In this document: piece by piece, positions 2,717-13,369 of the stretch
Layout of the letters: every line of letters starts with the position of its first letter
How positions within the stretch are numbered: the first letter of the stretch is position 1
Assembly: GCA_020349865.1 (NCBI GenBank)
Contig: CP070700.1
Span: 4,888,253-4,901,713, forward strand
DNA length: 13,461 bases
Source: Desulfobacteraceae bacterium
GTDB taxonomy: Bacteria > Desulfobacterota > DSM-4660 > Desulfatiglandales > Desulfatiglandaceae
Direction: 5' to 3'
Position numbers and translations under genes: made by a program
Notes under the pieces: generated by a model
Seen by the model: the letters and a program-made list of their open reading frames with translations, nothing else
Told to the model about the DNA's origin: nothing
The model's database searches: none

Positions 2717-4774
2717 TCAAGGACCAAGGATCTTCTTGCCGAAAAGGGAAAGGATGAATTCCGAGCTTACTCTTGGCGTGACCATTTCCGGGTCCCGCAC
2801 CGGGGAAAACCCGACAACATCAAGGGACCTGAGAAGGCCGGACATGGCAATCATTTCCATGGCAAGGTGTGCTTCCCTGTAAGAAATGCCGCCCTTTACG
2901 GGTTTAAGGACTCCTGGGGCGACAGTAGGGTCGAGCACTGAAAGATCCAGGGTTATATGGAGCCCCGATTTCCCCATGCCGGCGGCACGAATGGCGCGAT
3001 AACTCACCTCCCTCATCCCCAGGGCGTCTATATCTTCCATGGTAAAGGCCTTTATTCCGTAACGGGAAATCAATTCCGCCTCTTCCGGCTCTACATCCCT
3101 GAGCCCAATCAGGGCGACATTCTCCGGTTCCAGCTTGGGTTTTATCCCGCCACAGGAAGCCAGTTCTTCGTCACCGTACCCAAGGGCCGCTGCAAGGACC
3201 ATCCTGCTGATTCTACCTTCCACTTCTTCGCCAGGCGCTTGCAAGCCGCCATGAGCGCTGAAAACAATCAGTCCGGGCCGGTCGGTCAACCTGGAAAGGC
3301 CCTGGTAGACGCCCAGAGACGTTGCAGGATGCGAACTCATGACCACTGGAATGTAGTCTTCTAAAATAGCCTTCTCAACCTGTTCTGCGGTTTTTTCCGC
3401 CGTCTTAATCACCAGCTCTTTTCTCTCTGCAAAGGAACTGGTCTCTTTTGCAACCTGTTTTTTCAGGAAAGGAAGCCTTAAGTCACCCTTATTAATGACC
3501 GTGAACCCGATTTTCTCAAGTCCGGGAATCAATGTCACCGCCATGCCGGGGGAAGGGCTCCAGATATTAATTGAACCCGGCACATAGGGCTTTATTCCCG
3601 GGTAACCCTTAACCAGTTTCTCAACCACGGAAGAGGTCCGGAAACTCATTGCGCTTGGAACCCCGATCATGATGATGCCTTTATGGGGTTGCTCGACGGC
3701 TCCCTGTCTGAGGGGCTGTTTCTCAACATACATGGACGTCATAGCCGCCAGGAGTGAGCTGTAGTTGAGGTGAAATCTCAATTCACCTCCAAGGCGCACC
3801 TTATCCTTTGCCGCAGTCACATCCAGGAGGAGATGATCGCTTGATGCGCCCAGTATGGAGAGGCGGGTATCTTCCGGCACCATACCCTCAACATCCACAT
3901 CTTCTCTCCCTATATTCAGGATGGCCCTGAACATGTCGCCCTTGTCCTCGAATACGGGTTTGCGCCCGAAGGCGTCTTCGCTTGTCTCGCCTATAGGCAC
4001 CGAAGGTTTTTCTTTGAATTCGATCACTTCCGCATTCAGTAGAAAGGCATCCTGATAAGTCTCCGGCCATGCCATGCGGTTAACGGTCTCTCTGCCGAGG
4101 ATAATGGCTTCACCGATTCTCATATGGTTGATCTCTTCAGGCATCTTGCCTGAAGCGATTAGGTTCAAAGAACTCGAATTGCCGCCCGATATGTACTGTA
4201 GTGTGATGCCGAAATGCCCCTCTATCTGCCTTGCATATTCCACAAGGCGGTTCATATTCTCTTCCGAGGGGACTACGCCTCCGTAGCAGCTCAGGTTCGC
4301 GCCGATACCCACAATTCTGACACCGGGAAGATCTATGGTCCGGCTCACCATGGGCAGGAGATCATCAGGCCAGACACCTTCCCGAAGGTCTCCTAGATCA
4401 ACCATGATAATGATCTTGTGTACCAGGCCGCGACGGGATGCCGCCTCGGAAAGAGCTGCAATAACGGAAAGCTCGGAATTCAGGCTTATATCGACGGAAG
4501 TGACGATGTCTTCCACAGCGGAGAGGGGGGGTATCCTGAGCAACATGTAAGAGGTGTTGACACCATTGGCCTTTAGGCGGAGGATGTTCTCCATCCTGGA
4601 TTCCCCTATGGAATCAACCCCCCCCCGGAGCATGGCCTTTGCAACCTGTGGCATGCCGCAGGTGACCTTGGTTACGCCTGTTACGCTGATCCCGTGTCTT
4701 TCACAAAGACCGGTTATAGTGCGGGCATTATGTTCAACCTTCTCCAGGTCGATCATGACATAGGGCCTTGACAT
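2717..4774 (-). CDS. orr: Ornithine racemase fused to a degenerate arginase-fold domain
   Basis: Numbering here uses an in-frame GTG at 4817-4819 as residue 1 (700 residues). The likelier start is ATG at 4772-4774 (residue 16), which has GAGGCGAG ahead of it; the GTG has no ribosome site. Residues 16 to about 365 are a PLP-dependent alanine-racemase-N-type domain: TKVTCG with the presumed Schiff-base Lys51, VDSIGESRMENI, a barrel core, GGNSSSLNLI (212-221) and MRIGEAIILGRETV (233-246), as in ornithine racemase, which interconverts L- and D-ornithine. Residues about 378-700 match an arginase/agmatinase fold from its first strand (KGIIMIGVPSA) to its end, but with altered metal motifs: GGDH is MSSH (His497), DAHxD is SAHGG (His523), DxD is DLS (Asp625), and the E of EVNP is replaced by Gly670. 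Known single-domain racemases are about 350-370 residues. It is the last operon gene, supplying D-ornithine to the aminomutase. Confidence 0.85.
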   Translation of the reverse strand: MSRPYVMIDLEKVEHNARTITGLCERHGISVTGVTKVTCGMPQVAKAMLRGGVDSIGESRMENILRLKANGVNTSYMLLRIPPLSAVEDIVTSVDISLNSELSVIAALSEAASRRGLVHKIIIMVDLGDLREGVWPDDLLPMVSRTIDLPGVRIVGIGANLSCYGGVVPSEENMNRLVEYARQIEGHFGITLQYISGGNSSSLNLIASGKMPEEINHMRIGEAIILGRETVNRMAWPETYQDAFLLNAEVIEFKEKPSVPIGETSEDAFGRKPVFEDKGDMFRAILNIGREDVDVEGMVPEDTRLSILGASSDHLLLDVTAAKDKVRLGGELRFHLNYSSLLAAMTSMYVEKQPLRQGAVEQPHKGIIMIGVPSAMSFRTSSVVEKLVKGYPGIKPYVPGSINIWSPSPGMAVTLIPGLEKIGFTVINKGDLRLPFLKKQVAKETSSFAERKELVIKTAEKTAEQVEKAILEDYIPVVMSSHPATSLGVYQGLSRLTDRPGLIVFSAHGGLQAPGEEVEGRISRMVLAAALGYGDEELASCGGIKPKLEPENVALIGLRDVEPEEAELISRYGIKAFTMEDIDALGMREVSYRAIRAAGMGKSGLHITLDLSVLDPTVAPGVLKPVKGGISYREAHLAMEMIAMSGLLRSLDVVGFSPVRDPEMVTPRVSSEFILSLFGKKILGP

Positions 4775-4851
4775 TTCTCTCGCCTCTTCATGAAGTATTG
4801 CCGGTTTGTTAACGATCACTGTAAATCATTTAGCCGGATTGGGGCAGGGCC

Positions 4852-5110: not shown

Positions 5111-6484
5111 TCAACCCGTAATGCCGACACTTTCCAGGAGGATCGTTGTCGACTCCTCAGGGAATCTGCGGCCGAGAACACCTGCGGCCGACATTACATA
5201 GTTACGGTCCAGTAATATCTGGGCCTCACAGGGAGGCAAAAGTTTTCGCTTTCTAGGGTCGGCTCTCAGGGACTTCAAAATTTGGCCTCCCTTGCCGAGC
5301 CTTGTTAGTGCCCCGCCTGTGCCTATCACATATTTTATGGCGGTCAGGTCCCTGCCCTCCACTAGCTCATTACGGCCATAGGCCCCGTAGGCGATCCGCA
5401 GTTCGCCGGCATGACGCCAAATGGAAAGATCTACCGCCCATGCAGCAAGGTCGACGGAAAACCGGCGCGCCTCTTCCGTATCAGGCAGGGGCATGACGTC
5501 ATGAATATGACAAAGGGCATCGCCTGCAGCGGTTATAATATGATCTGCATTTACATATACCCCGAGATCACCCTCCACTGTCCGTTTGGATCTCGGTTCG
5601 GGGGCCGTCATCATCTTTGCGTATACGGGCGAACCCTCCGTCACGGAATGAACATCCGAGGTAGCCCCTCCCACATCAACGGTCATGACATCCCCCAGGA
5701 CTTCGGCCAGCAGCTCCGTAGATCGCATCACAGCCCCCGGCGTGGGGATAATATCGCCGGAGACCATCGCCTTCACCTCTTCCATGCCCGGCGCTGAAAC
5801 AATATGTCGGGCGAAGACCTCCTGGATGACCTTTCGCACGGGATCAATATTGAGTTCGTCAATCCGGGGATAGACATTATCTACAATAAAATAGGGCATG
5901 CCCGCCTCTTTCAGGATCCTTTTGACCTCGCCCCCGGCCGACCTGTTTCCGGCATATATAACCGGGATGGAATGGCCGAGTAAAGCCAGGGTGAGGGCAT
6001 TGCCGACAACTACTTGCCTGTCCCCGTAATCAACCCCTCCTGCCAGAAGGATGATGTTTGGGTTGATCCGGCTAATCTCATCCAAATCGTCTTCCGTTAT
6101 CAATCCTGCGGTAGTAAACTTGACGATGGCCCCGGCCCCCAGCGAGGCTTCACTGGCGGCCCGAAGGGTCATATCCCTTGTCAGACCGTGGACCGTCATG
6201 CGAAGTCCTCCGGCGGCGGATGAGGCGGCCATCAGTATTACGCCTGAAGTGTCAAGGCCAAACCGGTCTTCCAGGTCCCTTCTTGCCCCTTCGAGGCCTA
6301 CGGCAACATTGCCGTCTTTAACGGTAGTCAAGGCCATGCCCTGACCCAGGAACCGGGCCTCCCGGCGGTCGGATGAATCAGCGTTCCCGTCCACCCCGGC
6401 AAATGCGCTTACCTTGGTGATGGTGCTGCCGATATCGGCAACGAGCACGTCAACCCTCTTCAGAATACCCTTTGTATCAGACAC
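5111..6484 (-). CDS. MutL/GlmL-family reactivating ATPase for ornithine aminomutase
   Basis: A 457-residue actin-fold ATPase of the MutL/GlmL family that accompanies adenosylcobalamin-dependent mutases and is thought to help release inactivated cobalamin at ATP expense. Visible nucleotide motifs: phosphate-1 VADIGSTITK (15-24), phosphate-2 TVDVGGATSDVHS (268-280) and the adenosine motif IGTGGALT (387-394). Also conserved are LMAASSAAGGLRMTVHGL (84-101), ILLAGGVDYGD (145-155) and PTPGAVM (247-253). The start is GTG at 6482-6484, with AAGGA about ten bases upstream; it lies six bases after the oraE stop, so translation is probably coupled. Equivalent genes occur in clostridial ornithine operons and in glutamate mutase operons. 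A 13-bp direct repeat, around ACCCGTAATGCC (5091 and 5113), straddles the stop codon. The cognate mutase is almost certainly OraSE. Confidence 0.88.
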   Translation of the reverse strand: MSDTKGILKRVDVLVADIGSTITKVSAFAGVDGNADSSDRREARFLGQGMALTTVKDGNVAVGLEGARRDLEDRFGLDTSGVILMAASSAAGGLRMTVHGLTRDMTLRAASEASLGAGAIVKFTTAGLITEDDLDEISRINPNIILLAGGVDYGDRQVVVGNALTLALLGHSIPVIYAGNRSAGGEVKRILKEAGMPYFIVDNVYPRIDELNIDPVRKVIQEVFARHIVSAPGMEEVKAMVSGDIIPTPGAVMRSTELLAEVLGDVMTVDVGGATSDVHSVTEGSPVYAKMMTAPEPRSKRTVEGDLGVYVNADHIITAAGDALCHIHDVMPLPDTEEARRFSVDLAAWAVDLSIWRHAGELRIAYGAYGRNELVEGRDLTAIKYVIGTGGALTRLGKGGQILKSLRADPRKRKLLPPCEAQILLDRNYVMSAAGVLGRRFPEESTTILLESVGITG

Positions 6485-6490
6485 AGGATT

Positions 6491-8689
6491 TTATCCTTCT
6501 TTTTGAGTCATCATTTTTTTGACGATAAAAGTGGCCACCAGGTTGCCTTTCGTCCCCCTGCCGAAGCCTGCGTCCATACCGCAGGACCTGGCGATCTCAT
6601 CGGTAACCTGGGTCCCGCCGCCAATGAGCAGAATCTTATCCCTGATTCCGCGTTCCATGGCCAGATCATTGAGACGCTTCATGTTGGTCCTGTGAACATC
6701 ATTATGGGAAATAATCGTTGAAATCAAAACAGCCTGTGCATCCGTCTCCTGGGCGGCATCCAGGACCTTGGATATGGGCACGGAAGTGCCTAAGTAGTGG
6801 CAATGGAAGCCATAACCCTCAATTCCTCCATGTTTTATGTCCAGTATCTCCCTCATGCCCACGGAGTGCTCATCCTCCCCTACTGTCGCCCCCACGACAT
6901 GGACGTTTCGGGACCGTACATACGCTTCCAATTCTTCATCAGGGAGCCGTTCATCCTCCTTGGGGAGTACCAGTTCATCTTTTTTCACGGCATAATCCAG
7001 AATGCCCTTAATCTCAAAAAGTGCGCCCTCCGAAGGATGCATGACCCTCCTGCTGATCACCTCAATCTCACTTAGCCCCATTTTTTCCGCAATTTTTAGG
7101 GCGGCAGCTTCAGCAACCCGTGCCTCTTCAGGGACAAAAATGGTAACGCAGACGATGCCGTCACCGGCCCACTCCACCTCAGACCTTACCAGCCCGGCCT
7201 CTTTTTCCGAAAGGGGCTTTTCAAGTCGTTTACGAACATTGTCCTCTTCATCCAGCTCATCAATAAACCGGATTTTGGAAGGGTCACACAGGGTGCAGCC
7301 ATCGTATGCCTCGCAAGGTCTTCCGGCCTTTTCGGTATAGCTGTTATGGCCAAAATGGCTGCATACGGGCGCTCCATAGTCTTCTTCCCTCTTAACGATG
7401 CTGTTGGAGGCGACCCCGCCGTTTGGGTCACGGGCAATGCCGTCTCCCTTTCTTTCAGGGAAATAGCCGGAATCGACAAAGTGACCCTCTTCAACCGCAG
7501 CAAAATACCCGCCCCCTTCAAGAATCTCCTCCATGAACAAAACGGCCCGTTCCTTGATTTCCCTGACCTGCTCAGAGAGGTACCCCTCTTTCTTCAGTTC
7601 TATCATCTCCATGAGGCCGTCAAGGCCCATCAGAGTCTGTCGCGCAGTATTTACGCCTAATATATTGTTATAGTGCCAGGGAACATTGCGGCCCTCGTCC
7701 GGCGTAATGGTGCTTTGAATGTCGGCGGAAGTCATCCGGGAAATCAGCGTATCCAATACATGCGTAATGGTCGCCTCCGCCATGTCGGCCTCCATATATC
7801 GGGTGTTTTGCTGGGCGCGGAATTTATAGCCCTTAAAAAAATCCCGAAGGGCTTTAGCATAGGGAAGGTCGAGCCAAAGCTTTGGAGCCGGGGGCGCCGT
7901 GGGCGGTACCGTTGAGAGGGCGATGTGGTCTTTGGGCATGCCTACCGCGGCGGAAAAGGCACAATTGATCGCATGCTGAACAAGCAGTTCAGGCATTACC
8001 TTCCAGGCCCCCTTGGCCGTGGCATTGGCATTATGGGCCCCGTCAATCTGAAGTATCCGCGCATCCGTCATAACAGCCTTGGCCTCGGCCGCATCGACAA
8101 AGGAGCGGTGCAAGTTGATATTTCGATAAAGAACGTTGTACTGAGGGTCCTGGTGAGCCCCGTTGACTCCTTCTTCAGCAAACATCACGGCGATCTCCGG
8201 CCCTGCAACCCCGCTTACATATGAATGGAAGTTGATGGGTCTCCCCACCTCTTCTTCGATTGCATCGAGCGCCTTCCTGCTCGCCCGAACCTGTTTTCTG
8301 GAAATGGGAATACCCCCTATGCCTTCAGGGGTGCCTTCTATCAGACCGTCGAAATGAGACTGTCCCATGGTCCTGATAACCATCAGGTGATCCGCGCCGT
8401 GCCATGCGGCCATGCGCATTCGTCGAATATCGTCTTCAAATCTTCCTGATGCTATTTCCGTGGTAATCACAAAGTCACATTGAGGGTCGATGTTCCCAAA
8501 GTAATGGGCTGAAGGAAGTGGAACCGATTTTTTCAGGTTTTCCGACGTATCCTTAAGGTGAAATGAACCGACCTTGTGGTCCCTTACCGGCTTTCGCCAG
8601 GTCCACCCCTTTCGGCCGGGCCTGTATTTGTCCAGGTCCTTGAGGATTTCCCGGATATCGATTTTTTTGTAGGGGTCCAATGTTTTCAT
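6491..8689 (-). CDS. oraE: D-ornithine 4,5-aminomutase large subunit (cobalamin/PLP-binding)
   Basis: The 732-residue catalytic subunit of D-ornithine 4,5-aminomutase, which moves the 5-amino group of D-ornithine to C4, giving 2,4-diaminopentanoate. The N-terminal two thirds form a TIM-barrel with conserved stretches such as GRFEDDIRRMRMAAWHGADH (82-101), GVAGPEIAVMFAEEGVNGAH (160-179) and ALSTVPPTAPPAP (257-269). The C-terminal Rossmann domain binds adenosylcobalamin through DEHSVG (606-611), His608 being the lower axial ligand. Lys619 in ILDIKHGG is the presumed PLP lysine; its 11-residue distance from the His equals that between His618 and Lys629 of the characterised clostridial enzyme. 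GGGTQV (690-695) follows the base-on signature region. Length equals the family norm. The start overlaps the oraS stop as ATGA, with GGGAGGAA upstream, giving coupled synthesis of the two subunits. Confidence 0.96.
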   Translation of the reverse strand: MKTLDPYKKIDIREILKDLDKYRPGRKGWTWRKPVRDHKVGSFHLKDTSENLKKSVPLPSAHYFGNIDPQCDFVITTEIASGRFEDDIRRMRMAAWHGADHLMVIRTMGQSHFDGLIEGTPEGIGGIPISRKQVRASRKALDAIEEEVGRPINFHSYVSGVAGPEIAVMFAEEGVNGAHQDPQYNVLYRNINLHRSFVDAAEAKAVMTDARILQIDGAHNANATAKGAWKVMPELLVQHAINCAFSAAVGMPKDHIALSTVPPTAPPAPKLWLDLPYAKALRDFFKGYKFRAQQNTRYMEADMAEATITHVLDTLISRMTSADIQSTITPDEGRNVPWHYNNILGVNTARQTLMGLDGLMEMIELKKEGYLSEQVREIKERAVLFMEEILEGGGYFAAVEEGHFVDSGYFPERKGDGIARDPNGGVASNSIVKREEDYGAPVCSHFGHNSYTEKAGRPCEAYDGCTLCDPSKIRFIDELDEEDNVRKRLEKPLSEKEAGLVRSEVEWAGDGIVCVTIFVPEEARVAEAAALKIAEKMGLSEIEVISRRVMHPSEGALFEIKGILDYAVKKDELVLPKEDERLPDEELEAYVRSRNVHVVGATVGEDEHSVGMREILDIKHGGIEGYGFHCHYLGTSVPISKVLDAAQETDAQAVLISTIISHNDVHRTNMKRLNDLAMERGIRDKILLIGGGTQVTDEIARSCGMDAGFGRGTKGNLVATFIVKKMMTQKEG

Positions 8690-9039
8690 AGCGGCAGTTC
8701 CTCCCAGTATTTTCCTTCAATTAAGGCCAGTCCCGCCTCACGCACGGAAATGCCCTTCTTCTCTGAAAGCCTGAGAACCAGATTCCCGGCGCCGTGTCCA
8801 AGGAGACCGTTCTCCATCATCCCGTTCACAATCGGTTTTGTCTCGAGGCTGGAAAAGCCCATCCTGAGAAGAACAGACCGCTCAATGGATGGTGAAGTGT
8901 GGGTCCTGGACTCTTCAACAATAGGTTGAACGACTTTATCGATCAGACTCCAGAAATAGTCCCGCAGTTCCTCATCCGGCATATTTTTCAGGTGTTCTCG
9001 TCGCGCGGCATAATCATCAGTTCTTTCCTTTAAGCCCAT
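8686..9039 (-). CDS. oraS: D-ornithine 4,5-aminomutase small subunit
   Basis: A 117-residue protein matching the small subunit OraS in size and sequence character: the opening KERTDDYAARREHLKNMPDEELRDYFW, the central IERSVLLRMGFSSLE, and the late GHGAGNLVLRLSEKKG. OraS pairs with OraE to form the active (OraS-OraE) mutase and supports the TIM-barrel; it carries no cofactor motif of its own. The ATG at 9037-9039 has an excellent AGGAGGT ribosome site and lies 23 bases inside the end of ortB. Its stop overlaps the oraE start as ATGA. The adjacency to a full-length OraE makes this assignment very secure. Confidence 0.94.
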   Translation of the reverse strand: MGLKERTDDYAARREHLKNMPDEELRDYFWSLIDKVVQPIVEESRTHTSPSIERSVLLRMGFSSLETKPIVNGMMENGLLGHGAGNLVLRLSEKKGISVREAGLALIEGKYWEELPL

Positions 9040-10438
9040 GTATAACCTCCTCTACGTATTCTCGGGTTGACCTTGTATCCGCGGCCAGAAATTCAATGTC
9101 CTCATTGGTCGGAGTCTTTCCATCAGGGAGTGAGTTGATTGCGTTACGCAGGTAAGACCGTCTGATCCGGTCCAGATCAACATCCACAGCTTCGATCTGG
9201 GAAGGATGGAGAGGTATGACAATGGCCTCTCCAGGTTTGTTTTCCTTTGGATCGCCGCGTAATACCTTTATTCCCATCTGTTTGGCCAGGTTGAGTTGGC
9301 CCAGAGGGTGTTTGCCGGCACCCGTATATTCCGTTTCCTGCACAACGATGATCTTATCTTCCTCCATTTCCCGCGCCAGGGCAAAGGCCGCGGCCAGCGA
9401 GGTATTCCCTGCCGGTCCCCGTTCCATGCCCTCGATCTCCGCTAGCGCCTGGGTAATGTAGAAGACCTCCCCCTGGGTTACCGTCACGAACCGGTCCATA
9501 TACCGAAGGGATCGGGCCGCGTTCCTGGGGACATCGGCCCTGTCCGGCCATGTGGAAAAGGGGATGGAGAAACCAGTATGACCAGTTGTGAAGGACTTTC
9601 GGTTAAAGGCGTAATCCGACGCCATATGAAGGCCAGCCAGGTCCACACTCGCAGCAACCATCCGGGTCTCCGTTGCCTGAGCTTTAATGAGCCCGCGGGC
9701 CGTGCCGGTCACGTTCCCGCCGCCTGCGTGGGTGGCCACCACAACGTCGGGGAACCTGCCTTCCTTCTCTTTGATCTGAAACGCAAGTTCATGGCCCAGT
9801 GTCTCAATGCCCAGGATGGAGTAGGGCGTATACAGGGAGGCATTGAAAAAACCCGTCTCCATGAGCACAATAAGGAACTGGTAAAAGAGTTCCGGTCCTA
9901 CGGAGAGGCGAACGACCTCCGCGCCGTATGCTTCGCAGGCACGAGTCTTTTCCGCAATTTCCGGTTGAGCAATTCCCTTGCTGTCAAAGGCCTCCTGAAT
10001 AATGATGCAACCTAACCCCGCCTTTGCCGCCTGGGATGCGACAGCCGCCCCGTAGTTGCCGCTTGTCGCCGCCGTTATCCCCTTATAGCCTTTCTTTTTT
10101 GCCTCATGGGCCGAAAGAGACGCCCTCCGGTCCTTGAAAGATCCCGAAGGATTGGCCGCCTCATCCTTTACGAAGATACGCGCCCCCTCTCCGCGTCCCG
10201 ATACGGCCCGGGCCAGTTCGGTAAGATTCCCGAGTTCAACGAGGGGTGTGTTGCCTACGGCCGTCCGGCCCTGTATTTTGCGAGTGGTTTGCAGATCGTA
10301 CCCCGTGTCGGAGAGCATCCCTTCATAATCAAATGAAAGCGGGCCGGTTATATATTTATCATAATCTATACCCACGGATGTACGCATGATTTCGGCTTTC
10401 CGGTCCATTATGGCTGTGTAGGAATTATTTGTACTCAT
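9017..10438 (-). CDS. ortB: 2-amino-4-ketopentanoate thiolase, beta (PLP) subunit
   Basis: A 473-residue fold-type II PLP enzyme resembling threonine synthase, the large subunit of 2-amino-4-oxopentanoate thiolase. With OrtA it cleaves 2-amino-4-ketopentanoate with CoA into acetyl-CoA and D-alanine. The PLP lysine is Lys102 in NPSGSFKDRRAS. The substrate loop is ATSGNYGAAVAS (124-135), and the phosphate-binding glycine loop is THAGGGNVTGT (236-246). A C-terminal extension (about 400-473, through PLHPSQIEAVDVDLDRIRR) is characteristic of OrtB and absent from typical threonine synthases. The ATG overlaps the ortA stop by four bases, with GGAAGG upstream inside ortA. Its own 3' end overlaps oraS by 23 bases. 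Confidence 0.95.
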   Translation of the reverse strand: MSTNNSYTAIMDRKAEIMRTSVGIDYDKYITGPLSFDYEGMLSDTGYDLQTTRKIQGRTAVGNTPLVELGNLTELARAVSGRGEGARIFVKDEAANPSGSFKDRRASLSAHEAKKKGYKGITAATSGNYGAAVASQAAKAGLGCIIIQEAFDSKGIAQPEIAEKTRACEAYGAEVVRLSVGPELFYQFLIVLMETGFFNASLYTPYSILGIETLGHELAFQIKEKEGRFPDVVVATHAGGGNVTGTARGLIKAQATETRMVAASVDLAGLHMASDYAFNRKSFTTGHTGFSIPFSTWPDRADVPRNAARSLRYMDRFVTVTQGEVFYITQALAEIEGMERGPAGNTSLAAAFALAREMEEDKIIVVQETEYTGAGKHPLGQLNLAKQMGIKVLRGDPKENKPGEAIVIPLHPSQIEAVDVDLDRIRRSYLRNAINSLPDGKTPTNEDIEFLAADTRSTREYVEEVIHGLKGKN

Positions 10439-10749
10439 TGCGCCTTCCCCCTTTCTCTGAGAATTGCCCGTACCTCACCCCCGATGGGCGAGAGTTCAGG
10501 AATAGGAGGGCCGTAAATATGGGTGTATGACGGGTTTATCTCAACAAGTGTCCCCTCTATTCTCCTGCCAGCAGCCGTTATGATTTGAGCTTTCTGTCCG
10601 ACTATCGCATCGTTAACAAGGAAGCCCTTCACCTTCATTTCCAGGGGCACAGCCCTTGTGTCCTCTGGAACCTGGGGAGCACGCTCGCCTTTTTCAAGCA
10701 CTATATTTTGGATCTCAACCCAGGTATCCTTTTTTGCCTGCTCTGTCAT
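10435..10749 (-). CDS. ortA: 2-amino-4-ketopentanoate thiolase, alpha subunit
   Basis: A 104-residue protein with the features of OrtA: the opening WVEIQNIVLEKGERAPQVPE, then VPLEMKVKGFLVND, then GQKAQIITAAGRRIEGTLVEI, and the closing YGPPIPELSPIGGEVRAIL. It is the small partner of OrtB in the thiolytic cleavage of 2-amino-4-ketopentanoate. It has no cofactor motif; the central IITAAGRRIEGTLVEINP region looks like a small beta-barrel, as in related small metabolic subunits. The ATG (10747-10749) follows a strong AAGGAGG site and lies 16 bases after the ord stop. The four-base overlap with ortB suggests fixed subunit stoichiometry. Confidence 0.93.
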   Translation of the reverse strand: MTEQAKKDTWVEIQNIVLEKGERAPQVPEDTRAVPLEMKVKGFLVNDAIVGQKAQIITAAGRRIEGTLVEINPSYTHIYGPPIPELSPIGGEVRAILRERGKAQ

Positions 10750-10765: not shown

Positions 10766-11809
10766 CTATTTTTTAATAAGGGTGCGGATATCTCCCATGA
10801 CGGCGGCAGGAGCCGGAAGCTCCATCATGGATTTCAACCCCGGCGCGGCGTTAATTGCCCGGGGGATCATATTTACGGCCAGCGCGATCGTTCCTACCCC
10901 TCCCGGGATTTCAGGGCTACCGGAAAAATTCACATCAGGCTCACCCTTGATTTCAATATAGTCGCCCGTTTGGACATCCTCCAGGTGAGGATGTACCTGC
11001 TGGGGGTGAACCAGGTTGATGACCGGTCTGCCCTCCATGTAGGCCGTCGCTGTGTGAGTACAGCCTGCGGTATGCCCGGGTTCGATGTTCACAAAAGGGG
11101 TTTCCCTCTTAACGCTTGAAATGATAGGCTCACGGTTTTGTTCGATTTTGTCGATTTTCCAGCCCAATGCCTTTGAAATCATACTGATCGATTCAGGAAA
11201 TCCAAAGTGACCCACCACTGATCCGTCCTTCACGCCTTTTCTGAAAGCCTCCGGGGTTATGCCTACGCCCTGGGTCGTCAATACGGACGGCCCGTATGGA
11301 GACAGGTCGTTTATGCGTTGAGCCGTAATGGACTCCACACTGAAACAGACGCCCGTAAGGGTTATGACAAGCAGGTCAAGAACAAAACCCGGATTGATGC
11401 CTGTTCCGACTACGGTCACACCTTTTTCAAGGGCCAGCTTATGGATTTCATCTGCCAGTTGCGGCGCTTCGTATGCAGGATAAGATATCTCCTCGGCAAT
11501 GGAGACTATGTTGGCCCCATGGTTGAGAATGGTTTTGATTTCATCCACCGCCTGAACAACCTTGCTGCAGGTTGCCTGGATGGCAATGTGGGGTCTTGCC
11601 TCTTCAAGAAGCTCAGCAAGGTTGTTCGTCAACTTGACGCCGATCTCCCTGCCAAGTCCCACAACCTCTCCCACATCAATTCCAACTCGATCGGCCCTGC
11701 GGCCGTAAACGCCGGCAATTTCTATCCCCTGTTTTTCAAGAAGAAGTTTGATGATCCCCGAACCCATCTGGCCTGTGCCCAATACGACTACTCTAACAGT
11801 ATCCTCCAT
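10766..11809 (-). CDS. ord: 2,4-diaminopentanoate dehydrogenase
   Basis: The first gene of the operon, 347 residues. It oxidatively deaminates 2,4-diaminopentanoate at C4 to 2-amino-4-ketopentanoate with NAD(P)+, releasing ammonia. The N-terminal Rossmann domain has VVVLGTGQMGSGI (7-19, GxGxxG at 11-16) and belongs to the dihydrodipicolinate-reductase-like group. Further conserved segments are ATCSK (79-83), GANIVSIAEEISYP (98-111), VVGTGINPGFVLDLLVITL, and a C-terminal closing segment VGTIALAVNMIPRAINAAPGLKSMMELPAP. These match Ord proteins in length and order. ATG at 11807-11809 is preceded by AGGAGG (11818-11823). The reaction follows the aminomutase step, although the gene precedes the mutase genes. 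Cofactor preference cannot be fixed by eye. Confidence 0.94.
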   Translation of the reverse strand: MEDTVRVVVLGTGQMGSGIIKLLLEKQGIEIAGVYGRRADRVGIDVGEVVGLGREIGVKLTNNLAELLEEARPHIAIQATCSKVVQAVDEIKTILNHGANIVSIAEEISYPAYEAPQLADEIHKLALEKGVTVVGTGINPGFVLDLLVITLTGVCFSVESITAQRINDLSPYGPSVLTTQGVGITPEAFRKGVKDGSVVGHFGFPESISMISKALGWKIDKIEQNREPIISSVKRETPFVNIEPGHTAGCTHTATAYMEGRPVINLVHPQQVHPHLEDVQTGDYIEIKGEPDVNFSGSPEIPGGVGTIALAVNMIPRAINAAPGLKSMMELPAPAAVMGDIRTLIKK

Positions 11810-12498: not shown

Positions 12499-12558
12499 TC
12501 ATCTCAGATCGTCTTCAACAAGCAGGTGGATAATTCTGTTGCCCAATGCATCAAGCAT
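12499..12558 (-). pseudogene. Truncated second copy of the Lrp/AsnC-family regulator start
   Basis: Reads MLDALGNRIIHLLVED followed by DLR and a stop at 12499-12501. The first 16 residues differ from the intact regulator at two positions (D to G and K to R). Both the upper ATG and the GGGAG ribosome site of the intact copy have been changed (TTGAAATAAG before ATG). It is therefore a dead 5' fragment fused to RpiR debris. Confidence 0.85.
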
Positions 12559-12708
12559 CTTATTTCAAATAACACATTTATTTTCTAATAAAATAGTTAT
12601 TCATTCTTACATTATCTTTTCAGTGTAACTGTCAAGAAAAAAATACGTATTTTAGAAAAAAATTAATTGAACTTTTCTTATGCCCTAACTGGCCGAAAGC
12701 AGCAATAG
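12510..12708. repeat. Direct repeat copy B (degraded Lrp/AsnC 5' end plus promoter)
   Basis: Partner of 1529-1728 in the same orientation, about 11 kb apart. The upstream palindrome AAAATACGTATTTT (12640-12653) and the TTGACA box survive, while the downstream palindrome and ribosome site have decayed. Both copies end at the same GCAATAG, after which this one leads into dipeptidase debris. Confidence 0.9.
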
Positions 12709-12728: not shown

Positions 12729-13148
12729 TTATTTTTCCCAGATTTCCCTCAGGACTCTCAGGACGTTTCCTCCGATTATTTTCGCGGTGTCTTCATCAGA
12801 GTATCCTAATTTGATCAGGTTTCTAACAATATTCTTAGAGGCTTCGGTTGGATTTTCCAGTCCTTTCACATAGCGGATGTGCGGAAGATTCTCATGGCCT
12901 TCTATTGCGGAATCCCCAGTTGGAAAAACTTTAGAGAGGGCAACATGGAGCCCACAATGATCGCCATACCTGTTATCAGGGCCGAAAGCTACATGTTCGG
13001 CGCCCACAAGATCAACACAATATCGCAAATGATCAAAGCAAGAATCTATGGTGTGCTTAAGATGGGTTTCGGAACGGATTGTATTGGGAGAGGATTCTAT
13101 TCCAATCACACTGCCCTTTCTGGTGCATGCCAGGATAACCTCGTCCGG
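12729..13148 (-). pseudogene. C-terminal part of a membrane (renal)-type dipeptidase, peptidase M19
   Basis: About 140 codons without stop from PDEVILACTRKGSVIGIE near 13148 to the TAA/TGA region at 12729. Family landmarks: GSVIGIE (normally GGVIGI), HLRYCVDLVGAEHVAFGPDN with GDHCGLH as in the FGPD-type M19 dipeptidases, and the ending LIKLGYSDEDTAKIIGGNVLRVLREIW. M19 enzymes are zinc dipeptidases of 310-400 residues; the N-terminal half with the HxD and bridging Glu zinc ligands is absent. The ATG/GTG codons near 13109-13115 are probably not real starts. Upstream it joins a D-cysteine desulfhydrase fragment out of frame. Likely non-functional. Confidence 0.8.
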
Positions 13149-13149
13149 G

Positions 13150-13287
13150 CCCGGTCAGGTCGTCATGCTTAATGTACAATTCAATTCCCAGCTTCTCACC
13201 AAGACGTTTAAGCGGTTTAAGGGGAGTGGCGGTGTTAGCCAGATCGAGGCGGGGTGGATAAGAAATTTTTTGCTTTAGATTGTCCAT
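13150..13287 (-). pseudogene. N-terminal stub of a D-cysteine desulfhydrase / ACC deaminase-like enzyme
   Basis: Begins at ATG 13285-13287 with GGAGAA nine bases upstream. The 46 residues include YPPRLDLANTATPLKPLKRL, then LGIELYIKHDDLTG. This is the conserved start of the D-cysteine desulfhydrase/1-aminocyclopropane-1-carboxylate deaminase family (PRxxLxxxPTPLxPLxRL ... YIKRDDLTG), just before the missing GGNKxRK PLP lysine. The frame then enters dipeptidase DNA in the wrong phase and ends near 13057. A deletion has removed the rest of the gene and the first part of the dipeptidase. The enzyme acts on D-amino acids, matching the D-alanine theme. Confidence 0.75.
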
Positions 13288-13369
13288 GTCACGTTCTCCG
13301 AATATATGTTTTCTATATAGGTGGGACTAAAATAATAAAATTGTGTTCTGTGCTGTTAAATGTTTTGCG

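Follow-up and report, generated by a model that had tools for sequence, protein, structure and literature searches.

A racemase-arginase fusion in an ornithine degradation operon with a putatively inactive but constrained arginase half

Introduction

Why would an enzyme keep an arginase domain whose active site appears to be gone? This question is raised by a 13,461-nucleotide stretch of a Desulfobacteraceae genome (assembly GCA_020349865.1, contig CP070700.1, positions 4,888,253 to 4,901,713; hereafter the window), where an ornithine degradation operon includes a gene that fuses an ornithine-racemase-like half to an arginase-fold half (Table 1). A first-pass annotation, made from the sequence alone, had described a pyridoxal phosphate (PLP) racemase followed by a whole arginase-fold domain in an ornithine operon, and this description is borne out by matches to PF01168 and PF00491, by the neighbouring genes and by an AlphaFold model of the window protein, in which the arginase fold is intact. 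Judged by sequence, the second half is without the requirements of an arginase, a loss that is recurrent in the fusion family, and its fold is constrained. The conservation that persists points to the subunit interface rather than to the old active site.

Results

The Pfam Arginase model PF00491 covers residues 430-678 (E 1.3e-35), and the fold is recognised over the whole domain, while the NCBIfam model rocF_arginase (TIGR01229) matches residues 425-680 at 136.6 bits, far below its cut-off of 227.6. Residue counterparts were taken from an alignment with solved arginases and are given in the numbering of the Bacillus caldovelox arginase. Of the six ligands that bind metal in arginase (His, Asp, His, Asp, Asp, Asp), the window protein keeps two, namely H124 as His508 and D226 as Asp610, and has exchanged the other four (H99 to P483, D122 to S506, D126 to G510 and D228 to S612). 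Also changed are D98 (to H482) and all four of the catalytic and substrate residues that we checked: the catalytic His139 and Glu271 have become Ser523 and Gly655, and the substrate-binding Asn128 and Asp178 have become Gln512 and Glu562. The first-pass annotation had seen real losses in the metal motifs, but its list was short, leaving out the counterparts of His139, Asn128 and Asp178. Based on these residues, arginase activity of the second half is not expected.

The same annotation had counted three surviving ligands, numbered 15 residues higher than here, which is explained by an alternative GTG start at 4819, 15 codons upstream. Two of them (its His523 and Asp625, our His508 and Asp610) do occupy ligand positions, but the third (its His497, our His482) does not, as the alignment is free of gaps around it and places His482 opposite the non-ligand Asp98 and Pro483 opposite the ligand His99. 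Since the register is confirmed by relatives with SADP or SSDP here, His482 stands in place of a former non-ligand Asp. Among the nearest relatives, position 482 is H, D, N, S or E and position 508 is H, R, Y or F; His508 is replaced by Arg in the near relative P0005 and by Tyr or Phe in others. Within the clade of the window, Asp610 hardly varies, but only 20 of the 43 representative fusions that we call degenerate (at most four of six ligands) retain it. The mononuclear two-His-one-carboxylate site that had been proposed includes a residue off the ligand position, and as a conserved metal site it is not supported, given the register at His482 and the variation at 482 and 508; we reject it.

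We found the same architecture in at least 132 database clusters, or at least 133 with the window. These were drawn from three database searches (120 of 128, all 107 and 120 of 376 matches were listed) and clustered at 90% identity, so that the total is a lower bound biased to near relatives; P0001 is the window's near-copy. Sorted by the number of ligands retained, these fusions comprise 25 with six, 11 with five, 9 with four, 40 with three, 25 with two and 23 with one. All 11 of the catalytic and substrate residues checked are intact in 3 of the 133 (P0127, P0208 and P0209). The remaining 22 metal-complete fusions lack Asn128, His139 and Asp178, with eleven of the 22 gapped at His139, while a separate clade (P0120 and its kin) has kept His139 and Glu271 and lost metal ligands. 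Decay thus ran in at least two orders. Shortened fusions of 587-617 amino acids occur, and for a strongly eroded member an arginase fold is still predicted.

Several of the metal-complete members have features of their own. P0019, P0020, P0022, P0025-P0031 and P0215 (670-672 amino acids) keep six ligands, have Gly at Glu271 and Ser, Cys or Glu at His139, and lack Asn128 and Asp178; from these residues, they are possibly hydrolases of another substrate. P0184, P0185, P0187, P0189, P0227, P0228, P0229, P0231, P0233, P0236 and P0238 (616-644 amino acids) have six ligands and a gap at His139, with Glu271 present in 10 of the 11. The intact fusion P0127 opens with an integrase-core fragment (PF13683, residues 5-53), which is probably a wrong start or an upstream insertion.

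The history of the family was reconstructed from 62 representatives, of which 15 have six ligands, 4 have five and 43 are degenerate; P0043, P0060 and P0230, each incomplete at one end, were excluded. The racemase-half tree (the 62 fusions and two standalone racemases) was well supported; the distant standalone racemases L025 and L027, flagged for long branches, had been dropped and L006 added. The arginase-half tree recovered the same main clades and placed all 62 fusions in one clade against a small outgroup of five standalone arginases (support 99/94). Since the main clades agree and the arginase halves form one clade, these trees fit one fusion: apparently, a single ancestral event joined racemase to arginase, and repeated separate fusions are disfavoured. 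If ligands cannot be regained, the metal site was lost 7 times when Asp may replace His99 and 9 times under the strict definition, with individual ligands lost 3 to 15 times each; under unordered parsimony, 4 changes suffice for the metal-complete state. Two racemase-only relatives, L006 and L023, fall inside the fusion clade (a 22-row clade at 98/92), with weaker support for their exact placement (98/79 and 91/76), and each seems to have lost the whole arginase half, giving two losses. The racemase of L023 remains part of an ornithine operon in its genome (L070). The standalone racemase gene is directly followed in both L006 and L070 by another gene, which we take to be alanine-racemase-like, and between oraE and the racemase of L070 we matched no MutL-like gene.

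The fusion frame runs for 685 codons without interruption on the minus strand, from 4774 to 2717, in agreement with the earlier statement that there is no frameshift. We estimated the ratio of nonsynonymous to synonymous substitution rates (dN/dS) by the Nei-Gojobori method for 11 pairs, of which 3 gave an infinite dS for the arginase half and 5 a dS above 1.5. For the window and L001, dN/dS was 0.096 in the arginase half and 0.045 in the racemase half, with dS near saturation (1.70 and 2.58), and finite arginase-half values across the high-dS pairs, this one included, were 0.081-0.284. A dS below 1 was seen only for the three pairs formed by L002-L004, which have sequences in common and come from the 617-amino-acid group rather than the window's; their values for the arginase and racemase halves were 0.180 and 0.106 (L002-L003), 0.204 and 0.103 (L003-L004), and 0.181 and 0.096 (L002-L004). 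The arginase half is thus about twice as free as the racemase half but clearly constrained. With dN/dS well under 1, the earlier suggestion that the two-domain protein is under selection holds, and a frameshift or pseudogene is ruled out by the open frame together with these ratios.

What the constraint acts on can be read from the columns that persist. Across 38 representative standalone arginases, identity reaches at least 97% in 45 columns. Nine of the 45 are at least 95% identical in the 43 degenerate fusions (G173, R175, E181, D199, G202, G245, R249, E250 and E256), and the other 36 include all metal ligands, His139, Asn128, Asp178 and Glu271. The loss of ligands in the degenerate set holds by construction, but loss at non-ligand columns does not. 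In an alignment of 82 rows, 77 of them fusions (A1), the only invariant second-half columns are D583, G586, G629, R633, E634, E640 and G679, and an overlapping alignment (A2) has seven matching invariant columns. Asp199, Arg249, Glu250 and Glu256, putative interface residues in view of the literature, are all present in the window protein. Such interface residues make up four of the nine retained columns and none of the 36 lost ones (Fisher P 0.0008, for a grouping chosen after seeing the data). We take D199, R249, E250 and E256 to correspond to human Asp204, Arg255, Glu256 and Glu262. A 2020 paper, by its title, reportedly ties Glu256 and Asp204 to oligomeric structure. In arginase I, Arg308 forms a bridge to Glu262 and, in the rat enzyme, to Asp204 of the neighbouring subunit, its exchange for Ala gives monomers, and the B. 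caldovelox arginase, which lacks Arg308, binds L-arginine in that interface region (PMC7925462; papers with PMC numbers are cited from excerpts of their text).

Turning to the first half, residues 4-353 match positions 2-350 of the 351 in the ornithine racemase (Orr) model NF040742 at 448 bits. Because this falls short of the curated cut-off of 480 bits despite the near full-length match, we named the half ornithine-racemase-like. The gene neighbourhood expected of Orr (oraS, oraE, ortA, ortB and ord) is present in the window, and ornithine racemisation is the putative activity of this half. Lys36 is presumably the PLP-binding lysine. The operon runs on the minus strand with all genes co-directional, in the order ord, ortA, ortB, oraS, oraE, the MutL/GlmL-related gene and the fusion gene. 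At least one of these operon genes was near the racemase gene in 11 of the 12 loci inspected, and no Rfam match was found in the window. A figure legend in PMC8803604 lists orr, oraS, oraE, ord, ortA and ortB as the genes of oxidative ornithine degradation.

Table 1. Features of the fusion gene and its operon in the window. Residue counterparts refer to the B. caldovelox arginase and come from the alignment; fusion totals of 133 are lower bounds.
Feature	Position	Strand	Evidence or conservation
Whole fusion gene, 685 amino acids (ornithine-racemase-like half and arginase-fold half)	2717..4774	-	open reading frame
Racemase half, residues 1-358	3701..4774	-	PF01168 8-225; NF040742 4-353
Lys36, PLP-lysine candidate	4667-4669	-	131/131 fusions with a residue there, 2 gaps
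Pseudo-arginase half, residues 363-685	2720..3688	-	
His482-Pro483, counterpart of Asp98-His99 (GGDH); ligand His replaced by Pro	3326..3331	-	alignment
Ser506-Ala-His508-Gly-Gly510, DAHGD counterpart; both Asp ligands gone, His stays	3245..3259	-	alignment
Ser523, counterpart of catalytic His139	3206..3208	-	alignment
Asp583, counterpart of Asp199, interface position	3026..3028	-	43/43 degenerate, 15/15 six-ligand, 133/133 fusions
Asp610-Leu-Ser612, DxD metal motif counterpart; second Asp gone	2939..2947	-	alignment
Arg633-Glu634, counterpart of Arg249-Glu250, interface pair	2873..2878	-	43/43 degenerate; 132/133 fusions, 1 gap
Glu640, counterpart of Glu256, interface/arginine-site position	2855..2857	-	43/43 degenerate; 132/133 fusions, 1 gap
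Gly655, counterpart of Glu271 (EVNP glutamate)	2810..2812	-	alignment
MutL/GlmL-related ornithine degradation protein (Or-4-like)	5111..6484	-	PF13941 E 1.6e-142; NF040744 564 bits, under its cut-off of 600
oraE, D-ornithine 4,5-aminomutase large subunit	6491..8689	-	NF040743 1303 bits
oraS, D-ornithine 4,5-aminomutase small subunit	8686..9039	-	PF16552 E 4.8e-49
ortB, 2-amino-4-oxopentanoate thiolase subunit	9017..10438	-	NF040741 794.6 bits
ortA, 2-amino-4-oxopentanoate thiolase subunit	10435..10749	-	NF040739 125.5 bits
ord, 2,4-diaminopentanoate dehydrogenase	10766..11809	-	NF040740 479.3 bits

Outside the operon, a 178-base stretch at 1523-1700 is repeated with 89% identity at 12504-12680, upstream of ord. 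The first copy spans the start and upstream region of an intact Lrp/AsnC-type regulator gene (1113-1589, minus), and the second, which has no intact Lrp frame after it, is a truncated duplicate. Also upstream of the operon are two broken pieces on the minus strand, the C-terminal part of an M19 dipeptidase (12729-13109) and an adjoining frame (13057-13326) that, as we take it, resembles the start of a D-cysteine desulfhydrase-type PLP enzyme. Downstream lies a gene for a formylglycine-generating-enzyme-like protein (PF03781, 222-1019).

Discussion

In the explanation that we prefer, though we regard it as an even call, the pseudo-arginase half would be kept as an assembly scaffold after one fusion and recurrent inactivation. 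The ancestor would have been bifunctional, converting L-arginine to L-ornithine and then to D-ornithine, and the first fusion would have channelled arginine to D-ornithine. Once free ornithine became food, the hydrolase would have been superfluous, and the dead half would most likely have been retained for holding the protein together: the former arginase interface would probably give a trimer and would combine with the racemase half's own dimer contact. Fold-III racemases form such a dimer contact. In nine fusion genomes (G001-G005, G019, G057, G093 and G375), a separate arginase above the NCBIfam cut-off was found only in G003, another arginase-family gene below the arginase cut-off was found in G001, G002, G004, G019 and G057, and the same search gave no other arginase-family match in G005, G093 and G375, which are assemblies of unknown completeness. 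No arginine deiminase above cut-off was found in 13 genomes; most are metagenome-assembled genomes of unknown completeness. Fusion-bearing bacteria may obtain their ornithine mostly by uptake and not from arginine, and this would explain how the hydrolase became dispensable, although assembly gaps weaken this reading.

Several observations weigh against a scaffold. The arginase half is dispensable in L006 and L023, its rate of evolution is about double that of the racemase half, and its charged invariant residues, no less invariant in active arginases, may be needed for folding and not for assembly. Glu565 (E181), an old substrate-side residue, is kept in 42 of 43 degenerate representatives. 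A fifth contact, E278, whose exchange for Ala disrupts the B. caldovelox hexamer (PMC11271267), corresponds to Pro662 in the window and is variable in the fusions, as it is in 96 standalone arginases (R in 69, E in 11). In the analogous Fusobacterium fusion, the isolated decarboxylase domain has about the activity of the full protein (PMC8503589) and rescues growth by itself (PMC12826042). Because the E278 contact is not kept, a caldovelox-type hexamer is not supported, and a trimer would be the better guess.

The main deflationary alternative is that the arginase half is a vestigial passenger, decaying and yet to be deleted. The recurrent loss of the metal site, the faster evolution, the shortened versions of 587-617 amino acids and the two complete losses speak for a passenger, but dN/dS well under 1, seven columns that never vary in 82 diverse sequences (77 of them fusions) and the prediction of an arginase fold even for a strongly eroded member speak against it, and we consider this explanation doubtful.

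We regard as unlikely an arginine sensor, in which L-arginine bound at the subunit interface (Asp583/Glu640), as in the B. caldovelox arginase, would tune assembly or racemase activity. Garcia et al., by their title, reportedly describe an allosteric site that permits activation by arginine, which we count in its favour. The window protein ends 2 residues past the Met299 counterpart and so has no Arg308-like tail to fill the site, all 62 representatives have Ile, Leu or Val at position 682, the Asp583 and Glu640 carboxylates occur without exception in fusions that have a residue at these positions, and the B. caldovelox enzyme binds L-arginine at this interface region (PMC7925462). On the other hand, these two carboxylates are invariant in active arginases too, whatever their regulation, the old substrate residues are gone, and no arginine-linked gene was recognised in the window besides the ornithine operon. 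In a specific and bolder form, which we hold to be decidedly unlikely, the half would have lost its catalytic site repeatedly but retained the inter-subunit arginine site in all fusions seen, and would be an arginine-responsive assembly module, with L-arginine setting the oligomeric state and hence racemase activity at the entry to D-ornithine fermentation.

It is very unlikely, in our view, that the dead half is a partner-binding pseudoenzyme that docks an operon protein (the aminomutase or the MutL-like protein) or an arginase-family protein. Such a role has a precedent in MetCb, an arginase-family protein of metformin hydrolase, which has five of six ligands mutated and binds its active cognate (PMC11271267), and candidate partners exist, as operon genes accompany the racemase gene in most loci and 5 of 9 fusion genomes carry another sub-cut-off arginase-family gene, with a true arginase in G003; however, 3 of the 9 have no other arginase-family match, though their completeness is uncertain. 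For the second half of the window protein, a novel metal site or novel hydrolase chemistry is extremely improbable, as His508 and Asp610 hold true ligand positions but His482 does not and both 482 and 508 are variable in the closest relatives, even if a related clade with all six ligands and no arginine-binding residues might be a different hydrolase.

This family offers a natural experiment in pseudoenzyme evolution, with one apparent fusion followed by several inactivations through different residues and in at least two orders. With two deletions and living members with intact sites, beside a constant partner half, it allows a direct test of why enzymes keep dead domains. Annotators should also take the family as a warning, since several fusion proteins are named arginase in databases.

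The first-pass annotation knew of no described racemase-pseudoarginase. We likewise found no paper on a racemase-arginase fusion in the open-access literature, covered mostly by titles, and the excerpts of PMC8803604 and PMC8142540 make no mention of one, but the architecture itself is shared by at least 132 database clusters and a Fusobacterium analogue is published. Already known are an inactive arginase domain that follows an ornithine-using PLP enzyme (PMC8503589, PMC12826042) and arginase-family pseudoenzymes with a binding role (PMC11271267). Like the window protein, Fusobacterium Oda is an ornithine-using PLP enzyme with a C-terminal arginase domain called non-functional, in which two metal-binding Asp are lost (to Ser and Asn); unlike it, Oda is a decarboxylase of the aspartate-aminotransferase fold, fused reportedly only in Fusobacteriaceae (PMC8503589, PMC12826042). 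The N-terminal half of the window fusion is instead an alanine-racemase-fold enzyme (PF01168), found in ornithine-fermentation operons and with losses in several clades. MetCb is also an arginase-family pseudoenzyme with five of six ligands lost, and it serves as a binding partner within a hexamer, but it is a separate subunit paired with an active arginase-family subunit (PMC11271267). Compared to Orr (NF040742), the window protein shares the operon genes and a near full-length match, but adds a C-terminal half and scores below 480 bits. The Trypanosoma brucei arginase-like protein (4rhi, 4rhj, 4rhk) has the arginase fold too, but is standalone. By the title of Hai et al. 2015, it reportedly evolved without a binuclear manganese cluster. 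Finally, P0191, P0192, P0194 and P0195 fuse an ornithine--oxo-acid transaminase to arginase (PF00202 and PF00491) and, unlike the window protein, have all eight arginase residues checked intact; therefore, fusion alone need not lead to loss.
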